A stretch of 64,000 nt of DNA from positions 62,001-126,000 of the forward strand of contig VGCH01000004.1 in NCBI GenBank assembly GCA_016870115.1, read 5' to 3'. How positions within the stretch are numbered: the first letter of the stretch is position 1; each line of letters begins with the position of its first letter. The stretch comes from Alphaproteobacteria bacterium. GTDB taxonomy: Bacteria; Pseudomonadota; Alphaproteobacteria; Reyranellales; Reyranellaceae. The notes beneath the pieces were generated by a model. That model was not told the DNA's origin. It saw only the letters and a list, made by a program, of their open reading frames with translations, and made no database searches. Below are positions 24,300 to 29,396 of the stretch, in pieces. A program made the translations under genes and the position numbers.

Positions 24300-25502
24300 A
24301 TGGGCGCGCGGGCGACACTCCTCCTGATGCTGATCGCGGTGACGTTCCTCAGCCAGTTCTACCGGGTCTCCAACTCGGTGATTGCGCCGGAGCTGTCGCG
24401 CGATCTGTCGCTCGACGCCGCCGAACTCGGCTGGGCCGGCAGTGCCTTCTTCTGGGCGCTGTTCGCCGCGCAAATCCCCGTCGGCATGTGATTCGACCGC
24501 TACGGCGCGCGGCGCACCGTGGCGGCGTTGAGCCTGGTCGCGGTGTTGGGCGCCGTCCTGATCGCGCGCGCGAGCGACGCCACCGACCTGATCGTGGGCC
24601 GCGCCGTGGTCGGGCTGGGCTGCGCGGCCTCATTCATGTCGGTCGTGTTCCTGTGCTCGCGCTGGTATCCGCCCAACCGGCTCGCGACGCCGCTGTCCTG
24701 GGTATTCGCGGGTTCCAATCTCGGCACGCTGTTCGGAGCCACGCCGCTGGCACTGATCGCCGCCAGCGTCGGCTGGCGCAACGGGTTTCTCGGGCTCGCC
24801 CTGGTCACGGTTCTGGTCGCCGTCGGCTTCCTCCTGCTGGTGCGCGATCGGCCGCCCGAGGCGCCGCCGCCACCGGCCCGCCGCGAAAGTCTTGGCGAGA
24901 TCGTCGCGGGGCTGCTCGAGGTCTGGCGTACGCCGGGGCTCGGGCGCGTGCTCGCCATGCACTTCTTCGCCTACGCCACGCTCCTCTCCGTGCTCGGTAT
25001 CTGGGCGGGCCCCTATCTTCATGCCGTGCACGGCCTCGACGCGGTGGCGCGCGGCAATGTCCTGCTCGCCATGGGGCTGGCGCAGATTCTCGGCATCCTC
25101 GCCTATGGCCCGATGGATCGGCTGCTGGGATCACGCAAGAAGGCGGTCGTGGGCGGTGCGACGCTCTCGATCACGACTCTCGTGGCCTTGAGTCTGATCC
25201 CACAGCCGCCGCTCTGGCTCGCCGCGGCGCTGTTGTCGCTGTTCTGCTTCGTCTGCGCCTTCGGCACGGTGATCGTGGCGCAAGGCCGCGCGCTCTTCCC
25301 CGACCGGCTGGCGGGACGCGGCGTCACGACGGTGAACATGGCGCAGTGCCTGGGCCTCGCCGTGCTACCAGCCGCGACCGGCTACATCGTGGGCGGCTTC
25401 GCGGCCGAACTGGCTTATCGCGTGGTCTTCGCGGCGCTGGCCGGCGGGCTTGCGCTCGGCCTGGTCTTCTACGCGCGCTCGCCGGACAAATCGCCGGCCT
25501 GA
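24300..25502 (+). pseudogene. MFS transporter interrupted by an in-frame TGA
   Basis: Together the two open parts give a 400-codon major facilitator protein in one frame. The first part (24300-24491) covers two membrane helices up to AAQIPVGM; a TGA at 24489-24491 follows. Reading resumes with FDRYGARRTVAALSL, exactly the loop 2-3 signature that should come next. The stop replaces one residue in this loop with no frame change. A restart at the GTG 24519 would lack the first two helices, so the encoded transporter is very probably inactive unless the stop is misread or a sequencing error. The gene is divergent from the ABC importer. Confidence 0.85.
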
Positions 25503-25519
25503 GGCGCGGGAGCGTCGGC

Positions 25520-25849
25520 TCAGCCGATCTCGATCTTCGCCTCGGTGCTCCAGCTCTTCTTGTCGTCGTCGGTCCAGGTGAGCTTCAGCGTGCCCGGCTC
25601 GTCGACCTTGAGATAGAAGGCGAGATAGGGATTGGCCGAGATCGCCGGCTCCATCGTGAGGTCGATCACCGGCTTGCCGTTGTAGGTCGCGGCGAAGCCG
25701 GCCACGATCTTGCGCGGCACCAGCTTGCCGTCGGCGTCGCGCCGCTGGCCGCTCTCCATCGGGTGGGTGATGAGGGTCTTCACCTCGATCACCTCGCCGC
25801 GCGCGGCCTTGGCGGGAACCCGGATGCGGGGCTTGATGTCGTCGGACAT
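25520..25849 (-). CDS. soxZ: Thiosulfate oxidation carrier subunit SoxZ
   Basis: The 109-residue SoxZ-type protein has the immunoglobulin-like pattern of the family: IRVPAKAARGEVIEVKTLIT, HPMESGQRRDADGKLVPR and a C-terminal DDDKKSWSTEAKIEIG. SoxZ has no cofactor; it pairs with SoxY, whose C-terminal cysteine carries sulfur intermediates in the periplasm. It lacks its own signal peptide and is co-exported with SoxY, as usual. It lies 13 bases after soxY. Confidence 0.95.
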   Translation of the reverse strand: MSDDIKPRIRVPAKAARGEVIEVKTLITHPMESGQRRDADGKLVPRKIVAGFAATYNGKPVIDLTMEPAISANPYLAFYLKVDEPGTLKLTWTDDDKKSWSTEAKIEIG

Positions 25850-25862
25850 GGATGCCTCCCGT

Positions 25863-26318
25863 TCAGCCGCCGCAGCCGCCGATGGTCACCTTGACCTCTC
25901 GGCTCGCGATGAACACCTGGCCGTCGCTCGTCTCAGCCACCGCCCAGACCTTCTGTGTCGCGGCGAGCCGCATGCGCATCTGCACCTCGGCGCGGCCGGC
26001 GAGCGGCGAGAGCCGCCACGACGCCGCGCCCGGATCGGGATTGCCGTCAGCCGCAACATAGATCGCCTGGACATGGCTGCCCGCCGTTATGGGCGCGTCG
26101 ACCGAGACGGTGATCGGCACGGCCAGGCCGTTCTCGGCGATTTCGGGCGCGCGGATCGCGAGCTTGCCCTCGACGGGCGCTCCCTTGACCTTGCCCAGCA
26201 GCCAGGCGCGGGCCTGCTCGGGCGAGGCGCGCAGCTCCCGCGGCGCCATCGCGAGCGCGATGGCGGCGAGGCCGCCCGCGCTCAGCGTGCGCCGTCCCAG
26301 GGAAACGGATGCGGTCAT
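25863..26318 (-). CDS. soxY: Sulfur carrier protein SoxY
   Basis: The 151-residue protein ends in the family hallmark VTIGGCGG; the cysteine in GGCGG is the covalent attachment site for thiosulfate and its oxidation products. The N-terminus (LGRRTLSAGGLAAIALAM) is a twin-arginine-type export signal, with cleavage near the ELRAS site. The ATG at 26318 is chosen to start this signal; the frame extends 14 codons further upstream. It sits between soxA and soxZ on one transcript. Confidence 0.95.
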   Translation of the reverse strand: MTASVSLGRRTLSAGGLAAIALAMAPRELRASPEQARAWLLGKVKGAPVEGKLAIRAPEIAENGLAVPITVSVDAPITAGSHVQAIYVAADGNPDPGAASWRLSPLAGRAEVQMRMRLAATQKVWAVAETSDGQVFIASREVKVTIGGCGG

Positions 26319-26334: not shown

Positions 26335-27033
26335 TCAATGGCGGATGTTTGGGGCGGCAAGCTCCAGCCCCTCGTTCAGTTTTCTCAGATAAAGTTCCAA
26401 CTCGCCATATTCAACGGCGTCGGGCGGCAATTCGTTGGCCCGGACCTGCACATTGCACCATTGCAGGCGTTTGCGGATGTCCCAGATCTGATTGAGGCTG
26501 GTCCGCCACAGCGGAAAATGGTCGAACTGGCCTTGGGTCGTGCCGAGATACTGCCCGCGCAGCCACTTGCCGGCGCTCTTCTCGTGGCAGTCGATGCAGG
26601 AAAAATTGAACTGCCCCAGCTTTGCCTTCGAAAGCGCGACGCCGCGCCGGAAGGCCGCGTCGGCGGCGGGATCCGACAGATCGACCGCGATCTTCTCGCC
26701 ATTGCCGAGGCTGTGCAGCCAGATCGACATGTCGGTGTTGGCGTCGCTTTGCATCGGCCAGTCCGCGCCCGTCGTGGCGCGGGCGTGCCGGGTGATGAAC
26801 TCCTCCGCGCCGAGGACCTTCTCCAGCCGCTTCTCCCAGCGCGGCATGGTCACGGCCCAGCGCCGGAACGCCGTCTTCGGATCGGCGTGGCACGACGCAC
26901 ACGCCTGACCATTGGGACCGGGCGCGCGGAACAGCGCCTCGCCGACCTCGATCCGGTCGACCGAGGGATTGACGAAAGGTTCGGCGGCGTCGCGATCCTC
27001 GACTGGTTCGGGCCGCTTGTCGGGATCGTTCAG
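26335..27033 (-). CDS. soxA: Diheme cytochrome SoxA, lacking a normal start and signal peptide
   Basis: The frame contains two heme-binding motifs, CASCH and CIDCH, and the active-site cysteine region RLQWCNVQVRANELPPDAVE. These define SoxA, which with SoxX joins thiosulfate to SoxY. No ATG, GTG or TTG occurs between the soxX stop and the conserved start of the protein. The only candidate is a CTG at 27031-27033 that overlaps the soxX TGA (CTGA). From it the protein has 232 residues and no export signal, though SoxA must be periplasmic. The reading frame is shifted by one base from soxX, so the original product may have been a SoxX-SoxA fusion. Confidence 0.8.
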   Translation of the reverse strand: MNDPDKRPEPVEDRDAAEPFVNPSVDRIEVGEALFRAPGPNGQACASCHADPKTAFRRWAVTMPRWEKRLEKVLGAEEFITRHARATTGADWPMQSDANTDMSIWLHSLGNGEKIAVDLSDPAADAAFRRGVALSKAKLGQFNFSCIDCHEKSAGKWLRGQYLGTTQGQFDHFPLWRTSLNQIWDIRKRLQWCNVQVRANELPPDAVEYGELELYLRKLNEGLELAAPNIRH

Positions 27034-27578
27034 CGCATCGGCGTCTTGAGCGTCTTCAGGAACGCGACCATGTCGCGGATCTCGCGGTCGTCGAAGAAGC
27101 TGTGCTTGCCCCAAGGCGGCATCACCGACTCGGGATTGTAGACACGCGGATCGAAGATGTAGTTGTAGAGCCACTGGTCCGTCCGCCCGGCCGTGCCGAT
27201 CTCCGTCAGATCGACCCCGACATTGCCGGGCGACGGCGGCGTTCCCGGGCCCATCACATGGCAAACCATGCAGCCGCCGCCGCGCGTGCGATCGAAGGCG
27301 AGTGCGCGGCCGCGGGCGGCGTCGCCAGTGACGGTGCGCACCACGACCTCGCGACCCGCAGGCGGCGTGCGGTCGCGCCGGTTCAGCGCGTTGTAACCAT
27401 CCCAGCTCGTCTGGTTCCAATTCCGGTAGCGCGCCCACGGCGCGGGCGCGGCGGAGCCCTCAAGAGCGAGCGGCGCTTGGGCAAAGGCGGTCATCGGCGC
27501 AACCGAGACTGCGCCCACGCCGATCGCCAGCACGGCGACAAGCCCGCAAATCACGCCCTCTCGACGCATGCGCGACAT
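27030..27578 (-). CDS. soxX: Cytochrome c SoxX
   Basis: The 182-residue protein has a cleavable hydrophobic signal (GVICGLVAVLAIGVGAVSVA, cleavage near AFAQ), one heme site, CMVCH, near residue 103, and the methionine ligand region VYNPESVMPPWG near 150. SoxX is the monoheme partner of SoxA. The ATG at 27578 follows a GGAGG sequence at short distance; a second ATG three codons on is also possible. It is the first gene of the soxXAYZ transcript and diverges from fccA across a 209-base region with a strong inverted repeat. Its end meets soxA in a different frame. Confidence 0.9.
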   Translation of the reverse strand: MSRMRREGVICGLVAVLAIGVGAVSVAPMTAFAQAPLALEGSAAPAPWARYRNWNQTSWDGYNALNRRDRTPPAGREVVVRTVTGDAARGRALAFDRTRGGGCMVCHVMGPGTPPSPGNVGVDLTEIGTAGRTDQWLYNYIFDPRVYNPESVMPPWGKHSFFDDREIRDMVAFLKTLKTPMR

Positions 27579-27787: not shown

Positions 27788-28084
27788 ATGCGCATCCGAA
27801 CAGTCGCCCTACTGGCGGGGCTGGCCGTCGCTGCGGCCGCATCGCCGGCAACGGCGCAGGTCCCGCCGGTCGCAGCCAACGGTTGCCTGATGTGCCATGG
27901 CGTTCAGGGCCAGGGCGCGAACGGCATCCCGGCCATCATGCGGGTGCAGAGCCGTGCCGAGTTCACGACAACGATGAAGCTCTTCGCCGAGAACAAGAAG
28001 CCCGGCACCATCATGGGCCGCATCGCGCGCGGCTACACCGACGAAGACCTGGCCGAGCTCGCGGCCTGGTTCGGCAAGCCCTGA
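27788..28084 (+). CDS. Monoheme cytochrome c subunit of sulfide dehydrogenase (FccA-like)
   Basis: The 98-residue protein has a Sec signal (LLAGLAVAAAASPATAQ), one c-type heme site, CLMCHG, near residue 33, and a C-terminal LAELAAWFGKP helix typical of class I cytochromes c. It lies 13 bases before the flavoprotein subunit gene, which identifies it as the electron-accepting subunit of flavocytochrome c sulfide dehydrogenase. The ATG at 27788 has a GGAG ribosome site. Confidence 0.9.
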   Translation: MRIRTVALLAGLAVAAAASPATAQVPPVAANGCLMCHGVQGQGANGIPAIMRVQSRAEFTTTMKLFAENKKPGTIMGRIARGYTDEDLAELAAWFGKP

Positions 28085-28097
28085 GACGGAGAGAGCC

Positions 28098-29396
28098 ATG
28101 ACCGCCAAGACCCCGACCGTCTCCCGCCGCCGCGCGCTGATCGGCGCCGCCGGCCTCGCCGTTCTCGGCGCTCCCGCCATCGCCCGTGCCCAGGCCACCG
28201 CCGGACGGCTGGTGATCGTGGGCGGCGGCTTCGCCGGTGCTACGGCGGCGCGCGCCTCGCGCGAGCGCTTCCCCAACGTGGCCGTGACCCTGATCGAGCC
28301 CGAAAGCTCGTTCGTCACCTGCCCCTACGGCAACCTCGTGCTGGCCGGCCGCGACGCCGATCTGTCGCGCGTCACCCATCGCTACGACAAGCTGCTGGCG
28401 CGCGGCGTGACCAAGATCTCGCAGAACGCGGCGTCGATCGATCCGGTGGCCAAGACGGTCCGCACGGCCGGTGGCCAGACCGTACCCTATGACAAGCTGA
28501 TCGTGGCGCCGGGCATCGACATCAAGTGGAACGCCATCAAGGGCTACGACGAGGCCGCCTCGCGCGTCATGCCGCACGCCTGGAAACCGTCGCTGCAGCC
28601 GGTGACCGCGCTTAGCGAACGACTGAAGGCGATGCCGGATGGCGGCGTGTTCATCCTGTCGGCGCCCGCCAATCCCTTCCGCTGCCCGCCTGGCCCCTAT
28701 GAGCGCGCCTCGATGGTGGCCGAGTATCTCAAGGCCAACAAGCCGCGCTCGAAGGTGTTGATCCTCGACGCCAAGGACGGTTTCTCCAAGCAGCCGCTGT
28801 TCCTCGCCGCCTGGAAGCAGCTCTATGGCGACATGGTCGAATGGGTCGGCTCCGACAAGGAAGGCCGCGTCGTCGCAGTCGATCCGGCGGCGATGACCGT
28901 CGAGACCGAGTTCGGCAAGAAGCACAAAGGCGACGTGATCAATATCGTGCCGCCGCAGCAGGCCGCCCGCATCGCCCGCGAGTCCGGCCTCACCGGCACC
29001 GGCGATTGGGCAGCGATCGACACCCGCACCTTCGAGAGCAAGGCCGTGCGCGATGTCTTCGTGATCGGCGACGCCAACGCCGCGCCGCCGATGCCCAAGT
29101 CGGGCTTCGTCGCCAACAGCACCGCGATCCGCGCCGCAACCGTGGCCGGCGCGCAGATGACGGGCGCCGCGATCCCCAAGGCGATCTACTTCAACACTTG
29201 CTACAGCCACGTCGGCAAGGACTACGGCATCTCGGTCGCGGGCGTGTATCGACCCAACGAAGATGGCAGCAAGATCGACGAGGCCCCCAACTCGGGCGGC
29301 ATCTCCGCCCGCGAGGCCACGCCCGACATCCGCGCGGGCGAAGCGACCTACGCCGACGGCTGGTACCAGTCGATCACCAACTACATGTTCGGCTGA
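28098..29396 (+). CDS. fccB: Flavocytochrome c sulfide dehydrogenase, flavoprotein subunit (FccB)
   Basis: The 432-residue protein starts with a twin-arginine signal (VSRRRALIGAAGLAVLGAPA). An FAD-binding GGGFAGATAARASRERFP follows near residue 40. Conserved cysteines in VTCPYGN and FNTCYSHVG correspond to the redox-active pair near the flavin, and CPPGPYERASMVAEYLK is the substrate-side loop. It oxidises sulfide to sulfur/polysulfide in the periplasm and passes electrons through FccA to cytochrome c. It pairs with fccA in a two-gene operon and ends before a large hairpin. Confidence 0.93.
   Translation: MTAKTPTVSRRRALIGAAGLAVLGAPAIARAQATAGRLVIVGGGFAGATAARASRERFPNVAVTLIEPESSFVTCPYGNLVLAGRDADLSRVTHRYDKLLARGVTKISQNAASIDPVAKTVRTAGGQTVPYDKLIVAPGIDIKWNAIKGYDEAASRVMPHAWKPSLQPVTALSERLKAMPDGGVFILSAPANPFRCPPGPYERASMVAEYLKANKPRSKVLILDAKDGFSKQPLFLAAWKQLYGDMVEWVGSDKEGRVVAVDPAAMTVETEFGKKHKGDVINIVPPQQAARIARESGLTGTGDWAAIDTRTFESKAVRDVFVIGDANAAPPMPKSGFVANSTAIRAATVAGAQMTGAAIPKAIYFNTCYSHVGKDYGISVAGVYRPNEDGSKIDEAPNSGGISAREATPDIRAGEATYADGWYQSITNYMFG

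Follow-up and report, generated by a model that had tools for sequence, protein, structure and literature searches.

A soxXA fusion gene very likely disrupted by a 13-base loss in a decaying Sox cluster of a Reyranellaceae genome

The junction between soxX and soxA described here is, very likely, the product of a recently disrupted soxXA fusion gene within a decaying Sox cluster, from which 13 bases have been lost at the join. The window analysed is the whole 64,000-nucleotide stretch of contig VGCH01000004.1 of the Reyranellaceae assembly GCA_016870115.1 (genome G000), and all coordinates refer to it unless another locus is named (Table 1). The finding is real yet ordinary: the gene belongs to a fused family that is already known, is broken, and lies in a Sox cluster that is losing genes.

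Table 1. Features of the Sox cluster and its surroundings in the window
Feature	Positions	Strand	Remarks
MFS transporter	24519..25502	+	in L033 and L078 its relative lies at the far side of soxB/dsrE
Scar at the soxB and dsrE-like position	25503..25519	.	17 bases between the MFS and soxZ stops
soxZ	25520..25849	-	intact
soxY	25863..26318	-	intact, with GGCGG at its end; private changes at 7 sites that are otherwise invariant
soxA half of former fusion	26335..27036	-	233 codons open, TIGR04484 above cut-off
Deletion join	27026..27046	-	13 bases of aligned relatives missing; single CGCCG copy left
soxX half of former soxXA fusion	27030..27569	-	179 aa, signal peptide, TIGR04485 above cut-off
Small cytochrome c, fccA-like	27806..28084	+	PF00034; divergent from soxX
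fccB, flavocytochrome c sulfide dehydrogenase flavoprotein	28098..29396	+	PF21706, PF09242; intact

Both halves of the gene are readily recognizable. The SoxX half scores 66 bits against TIGR04485 (cut-off 61) and the SoxA half 148 bits against TIGR04484 (cut-off 110), both thresholds being the curated NCBIfam cut-offs. SoxX begins with the Sec-like signal MRREGVICGLVAVLAIGVGAVSVAPMTAFAQAP, carries a single CxxCH heme motif (CMVCH) together with a Met ligand (MPPW), and ends in ...FLKTLKTPMR, its last codons AAG ACG CCG ATG CGC being followed by TGA at 27032-27030. The SoxA half contains the heme motifs CASCH and CIDCH and the ligand cysteine in WCNVQ. Its frame is open on the minus strand from 27459 to 26335, including most of soxX, and the conserved SoxA part begins at the join as GCG CTG AAC GAT CCC, one frame off soxX.

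The initial annotation had reported that soxA follows the soxX stop directly in a shifted frame, that it has no normal start codon apart from a CTG within a CTGA overlap, and that it has no signal peptide. All three observations are borne out by the codons and translations at the join, where the CTG of the soxA frame does overlap the soxX stop. Start-type codons in this frame occur at 27438, 27420, 27264, 27174 and 27114, all inside soxX, or at 26853 and beyond, past the first SoxA heme motif, and none of them suits SoxA. No ATG, GTG or TTG lies between 27114 and 26853, which leaves the SoxA half with neither a plausible start before 26853 nor an export signal. The two halves thus lie in different frames and do not form one polypeptide. 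Each half is nonetheless homologous to the fusions of the family (51-69% for SoxX, 59-78% for SoxA), and the linker is present save for 13 bases. Judged by these alignments, the window locus is a member of the fused SoxXA family by descent, as a broken copy.

The state of the gene in relatives carries most of this argument. A census of 75 Reyranellaceae genomes found soxX and soxA as a single in-frame open reading frame, roughly 400 aa long and with one signal peptide, in 22 of them (21 full-length fusions and one ended by the contig end, in G104), along with three broken copies, in G000 itself and in genomes G025 and G100. When 60 related genomes were searched, close relatives of SoxA turned up in 12 genomes of the same family. 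The two halves share one frame at all 12 of these loci, and at 11 they form a single open reading frame at least about 400 aa long; the remaining locus, in G025, is in frame at the junction yet carries further lesions. More broadly, a scan of GTDB species genomes recovered 47 loci, with both halves in frame in 46. The sole exception, L078, has soxX and the first part of soxA in frame and is broken inside soxA. These loci span Reyranellaceae-type Alphaproteobacteria and records labelled Thiobacillus, Hydrogenophilus, Rhodocyclaceae, Beggiatoa, Thiomargarita and Marithrix. Given this distribution and the family census, the fused form is the ancestral state here, which strongly supports the earlier suggestion that an indel broke an ancestral fusion of SoxX and SoxA that relied on the SoxX signal.

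Two further loci in this set deserve mention. A MAG labelled Candidatus Odyssella carries two tandem fused copies (L060, 4530-5699 and 5953-7206). The complete chromosome of the betaproteobacterium GR16-43 encodes a fused SoxXA (L057, 6001-7230) that sits on a long branch among Reyranellaceae-type sequences, and gene transfer is a possible explanation.

We also considered the opposite history, in which soxX and soxA were separate ancestral genes, each with its own signal, and this locus simply lost sequence. No genome found in the soxXA clade has separate genes, and we rejected this alternative. Separate genes were found only in a remote paralogous set, at about 30% identity, that is also present in G000. 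On its contig C13 (L095, 11393-14959) lie an fccB-like gene, soxX, a SoxY-related gene of the AACIE type, a soxZ-like open reading frame and soxA. This set is intact and unfused, its soxX scoring 77 bits (cut-off 61) and its soxA 196 bits (cut-off 110), and each of these two genes has its own signal-like start. According to the census, SoxA of this type is found in most genomes of the family.

The nature of the lesion follows from comparison with the intact fusions. The aligned relatives are all equal in length at the join and the window is exactly 13 bases shorter than every one of them, so the one-base indel originally proposed must be rejected. In six close relatives (L033, L040, L041, L052, L075 and L078) the join contains two CGCCG copies separated by eight bases, a distance of exactly 13; in L040 this pair is part of a longer repeat. 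Repeats of five bases at a distance of 13 are rare in these genes (0.14% of positions), and removing one CGCCG copy with the intervening bases yields the window sequence. Most simply, we infer, the 13 bases were lost by slippage between these direct repeats. The CTGA overlap itself results from the deletion: where the window has the CTG of CTGA, relatives have a leucine codon, CTG or CTC.

A different possibility is that the missing bases reflect an assembly or consensus error, or a strain polymorphism in the sample, with soxXA still intact and in frame in the living population. The genome is a draft of 59 contigs, and soxA is otherwise pristine. It shows one private change at 82 otherwise invariant columns and no second lesion was found in it, with both heme motifs and the ligand cysteine kept throughout its open codons. 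Such a condition is as compatible with a very recent event, or with a difference at the level of the assembly, as with decay. However, a loss of exactly 13 bases at a site where relatives carry repeats spaced by 13 is typical of replication slippage and is not a usual sequencing error, and the same cluster has independently lost soxB and a dsrE-like gene. We therefore regard an error or polymorphism as unlikely, and favour a genuine disruption of the fusion.

If the disruption is genuine, it is probably young, because soxX and soxA are not over-diverged and soxA is nearly unchanged. Distance ratios to relatives are 1.42 for soxX and 1.57 for soxA, compared with 1.47-2.13 for the neighbouring MFS, TTT, OB-fold and thiolase genes, which suggests that constraint on both halves lasted until recently. 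With the neighbouring genes as control, relaxed selection was not found for soxX or soxA and so gives no proof of decay, and the longer branch of the window sequence in the tree (0.4) is likewise not specific. In soxY, the private changes fall at 7 of 46 invariant sites, with the window as the only member of its genus compared.

The initial annotation also raised the prospect that the pair is read by frameshifting or by CTG initiation, neither of which found support. Programmed -1 ribosomal frameshifting at the join could still yield full-length SoxXA, as the soxA frame has no stop across most of soxX, so that a shift near the end of soxX would give a fused product, and soxA is well conserved. 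However, a scan of soxX for slippery heptamers of the form X XXY YYZ found none near the join; the only ones are the GC-type GGGCCCG and CCCGGGA, about 220 nt upstream of the stop and just after the heme motif. The arrangement is also confined to G000, relatives encode the fusion directly and need no shift, and soxB is missing. We consider frameshifting very improbable. Separate translation of soxA from the CTG, coupled to soxX termination, is hardly more credible. The CTGA does resemble stop-start overlaps, but CTG start codons are rare, no Shine-Dalgarno-like sequence precedes this one, the overlap arose through the deletion, and a product without a signal peptide could not have hemes attached to it in the periplasm. 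We also give very little credence to the broader idea that recoding bypasses the break, such that full-length SoxXA is made and SoxA remains under selection, acting alongside SoxYZ and flavocytochrome c in a SoxB-less form of the Sox system.

The surrounding cluster points to decay of a disrupted fusion. In locus L033, the order is soxXA-soxY-soxZ-soxB-dsrE-MFS, with the same thiolase, OB-fold and TTT flanking genes as in the window. The soxB and dsrE-like genes of L033 occupy about 2.2 kb, and in both L033 and L078 they sit between soxZ and the MFS gene, precisely where they are missing from the window. SoxB (TIGR04486), which a functional thiosulfate-oxidising Sox system needs, had no match anywhere in G000, a genome estimated to be 100% complete. 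By comparison, soxB is kept in all genomes with an intact fusion, although in G073 only a piece is present at a contig end. Among the genomes with a broken fusion, it is missing from G000 and G025 and kept in G100. The SoxC equivalog was not found in G000 either, but we dropped its absence as evidence of decay because 4 of 11 intact-fusion genomes are also without SoxC. On the other side of the broken gene, the window carries an fccAB pair (27806-29396) divergent to soxXA; at this position L033 instead has a different small cytochrome c, directly upstream on the same strand.

The remaining two broken copies in the family carry lesions of other kinds. In G025 (L014/L075) there is an in-frame stop in soxX and soxA is lost after about residue 80, and the other genes of its sox cluster have gone from that contig as well. 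In G100 (L078) an internal deletion in soxA changes the frame. The corresponding loci L075 (89-847) and L078 (51-1087) come from closely related MAGs labelled Asaia bogorensis, with soxXA broken by different lesions. Whole-genome kinship places G025 and G100, which match these loci, in the family of the window, and the Asaia bogorensis labels therefore look wrong.

The window copy was also compared with known systems. Its SoxA half matches chain A of PDB entries 2C1D (E 2.7e-22) and 1H31 (3.3e-18), and its SoxX half matches chain B of 1H31 (4.9e-4). These structures represent canonical, separate SoxX and SoxA, in which two genes encode two chains, each exported alone. Unlike canonical SoxA, the window SoxA has no signal, because it is descended from a fusion. 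A close counterpart is the Reyranellaceae/Enhydrobacter-type soxXA-soxY-soxZ-soxB-dsrE cluster (for example L033, L044 and L047), which shares the same fusion, with SoxA at about 70-75% identity, and the neighbouring genes for thiolase, OB-fold and TTT proteins, soxY, soxZ and MFS. The window differs from this cluster in being without soxB and dsrE, in having fccAB beside soxX, and in its broken fusion. Fused SoxAX has already been described from Beggiatoaceae (PMC11172852), and in Beggiatoa leptomitoformis a single protein accession is listed for soxAX, while proteomics detected SoxAXYZ proteins (PMC11507549). An exact-phrase literature search for fused SoxXA returned nothing, and a broader search led to the Beggiatoaceae description. 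As in the window family, the Beggiatoaceae protein is a single polypeptide with a SoxX domain followed by a SoxA domain. The family alignment also retrieved loci labelled Beggiatoa, Thiomargarita, Marithrix and Ca. Albibeggiatoa, and all of these intact versions are in frame, whereas the window copy lacks 13 bases and its halves do not share a frame.

Deletions that remove a pathway gene are ordinary events. For this reason, and because a fused protein of this kind was already known from Beggiatoaceae, the view that any explanation of this junction would be unusual was overstated. Most likely we are dealing with an ordinary decaying pathway and not with a new way of reading genes, because soxB is gone too.

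The course of events can be outlined on this basis. The ancestral gene would have encoded one exported polypeptide, with SoxX (one heme) and SoxA (two heme motifs) sharing the SoxX signal peptide. Slippage between the two CGCCG repeats would then have removed 13 bases at the join and left soxA out of frame behind a TGA. From its sequence, the gene is predicted to have lost exported SoxA, and SoxX alone can presumably still be made. The cell would make and export a short SoxX, and no SoxA would come from this locus. SoxYZ would then not be loaded with thiosulfate here, and Sox thiosulfate conjugation at this locus would be lost. With SoxB missing as well, the Sox cycle would not be expected to run. 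The roles of SoxAX and SoxB in the cycle are also stated elsewhere (PMC6397845).

These results resolve the odd junction as a lesion of a fused soxXA. They also indicate that SoxX and SoxA matches in such genomes do not by themselves imply thiosulfate oxidation: here the SoxX, SoxA, SoxY and SoxZ models all match, although soxXA is disrupted and there is no SoxB. Finally, they extend the record of fused SoxXA well beyond Beggiatoaceae and show that soxXA has been damaged repeatedly within one alphaproteobacterial family.
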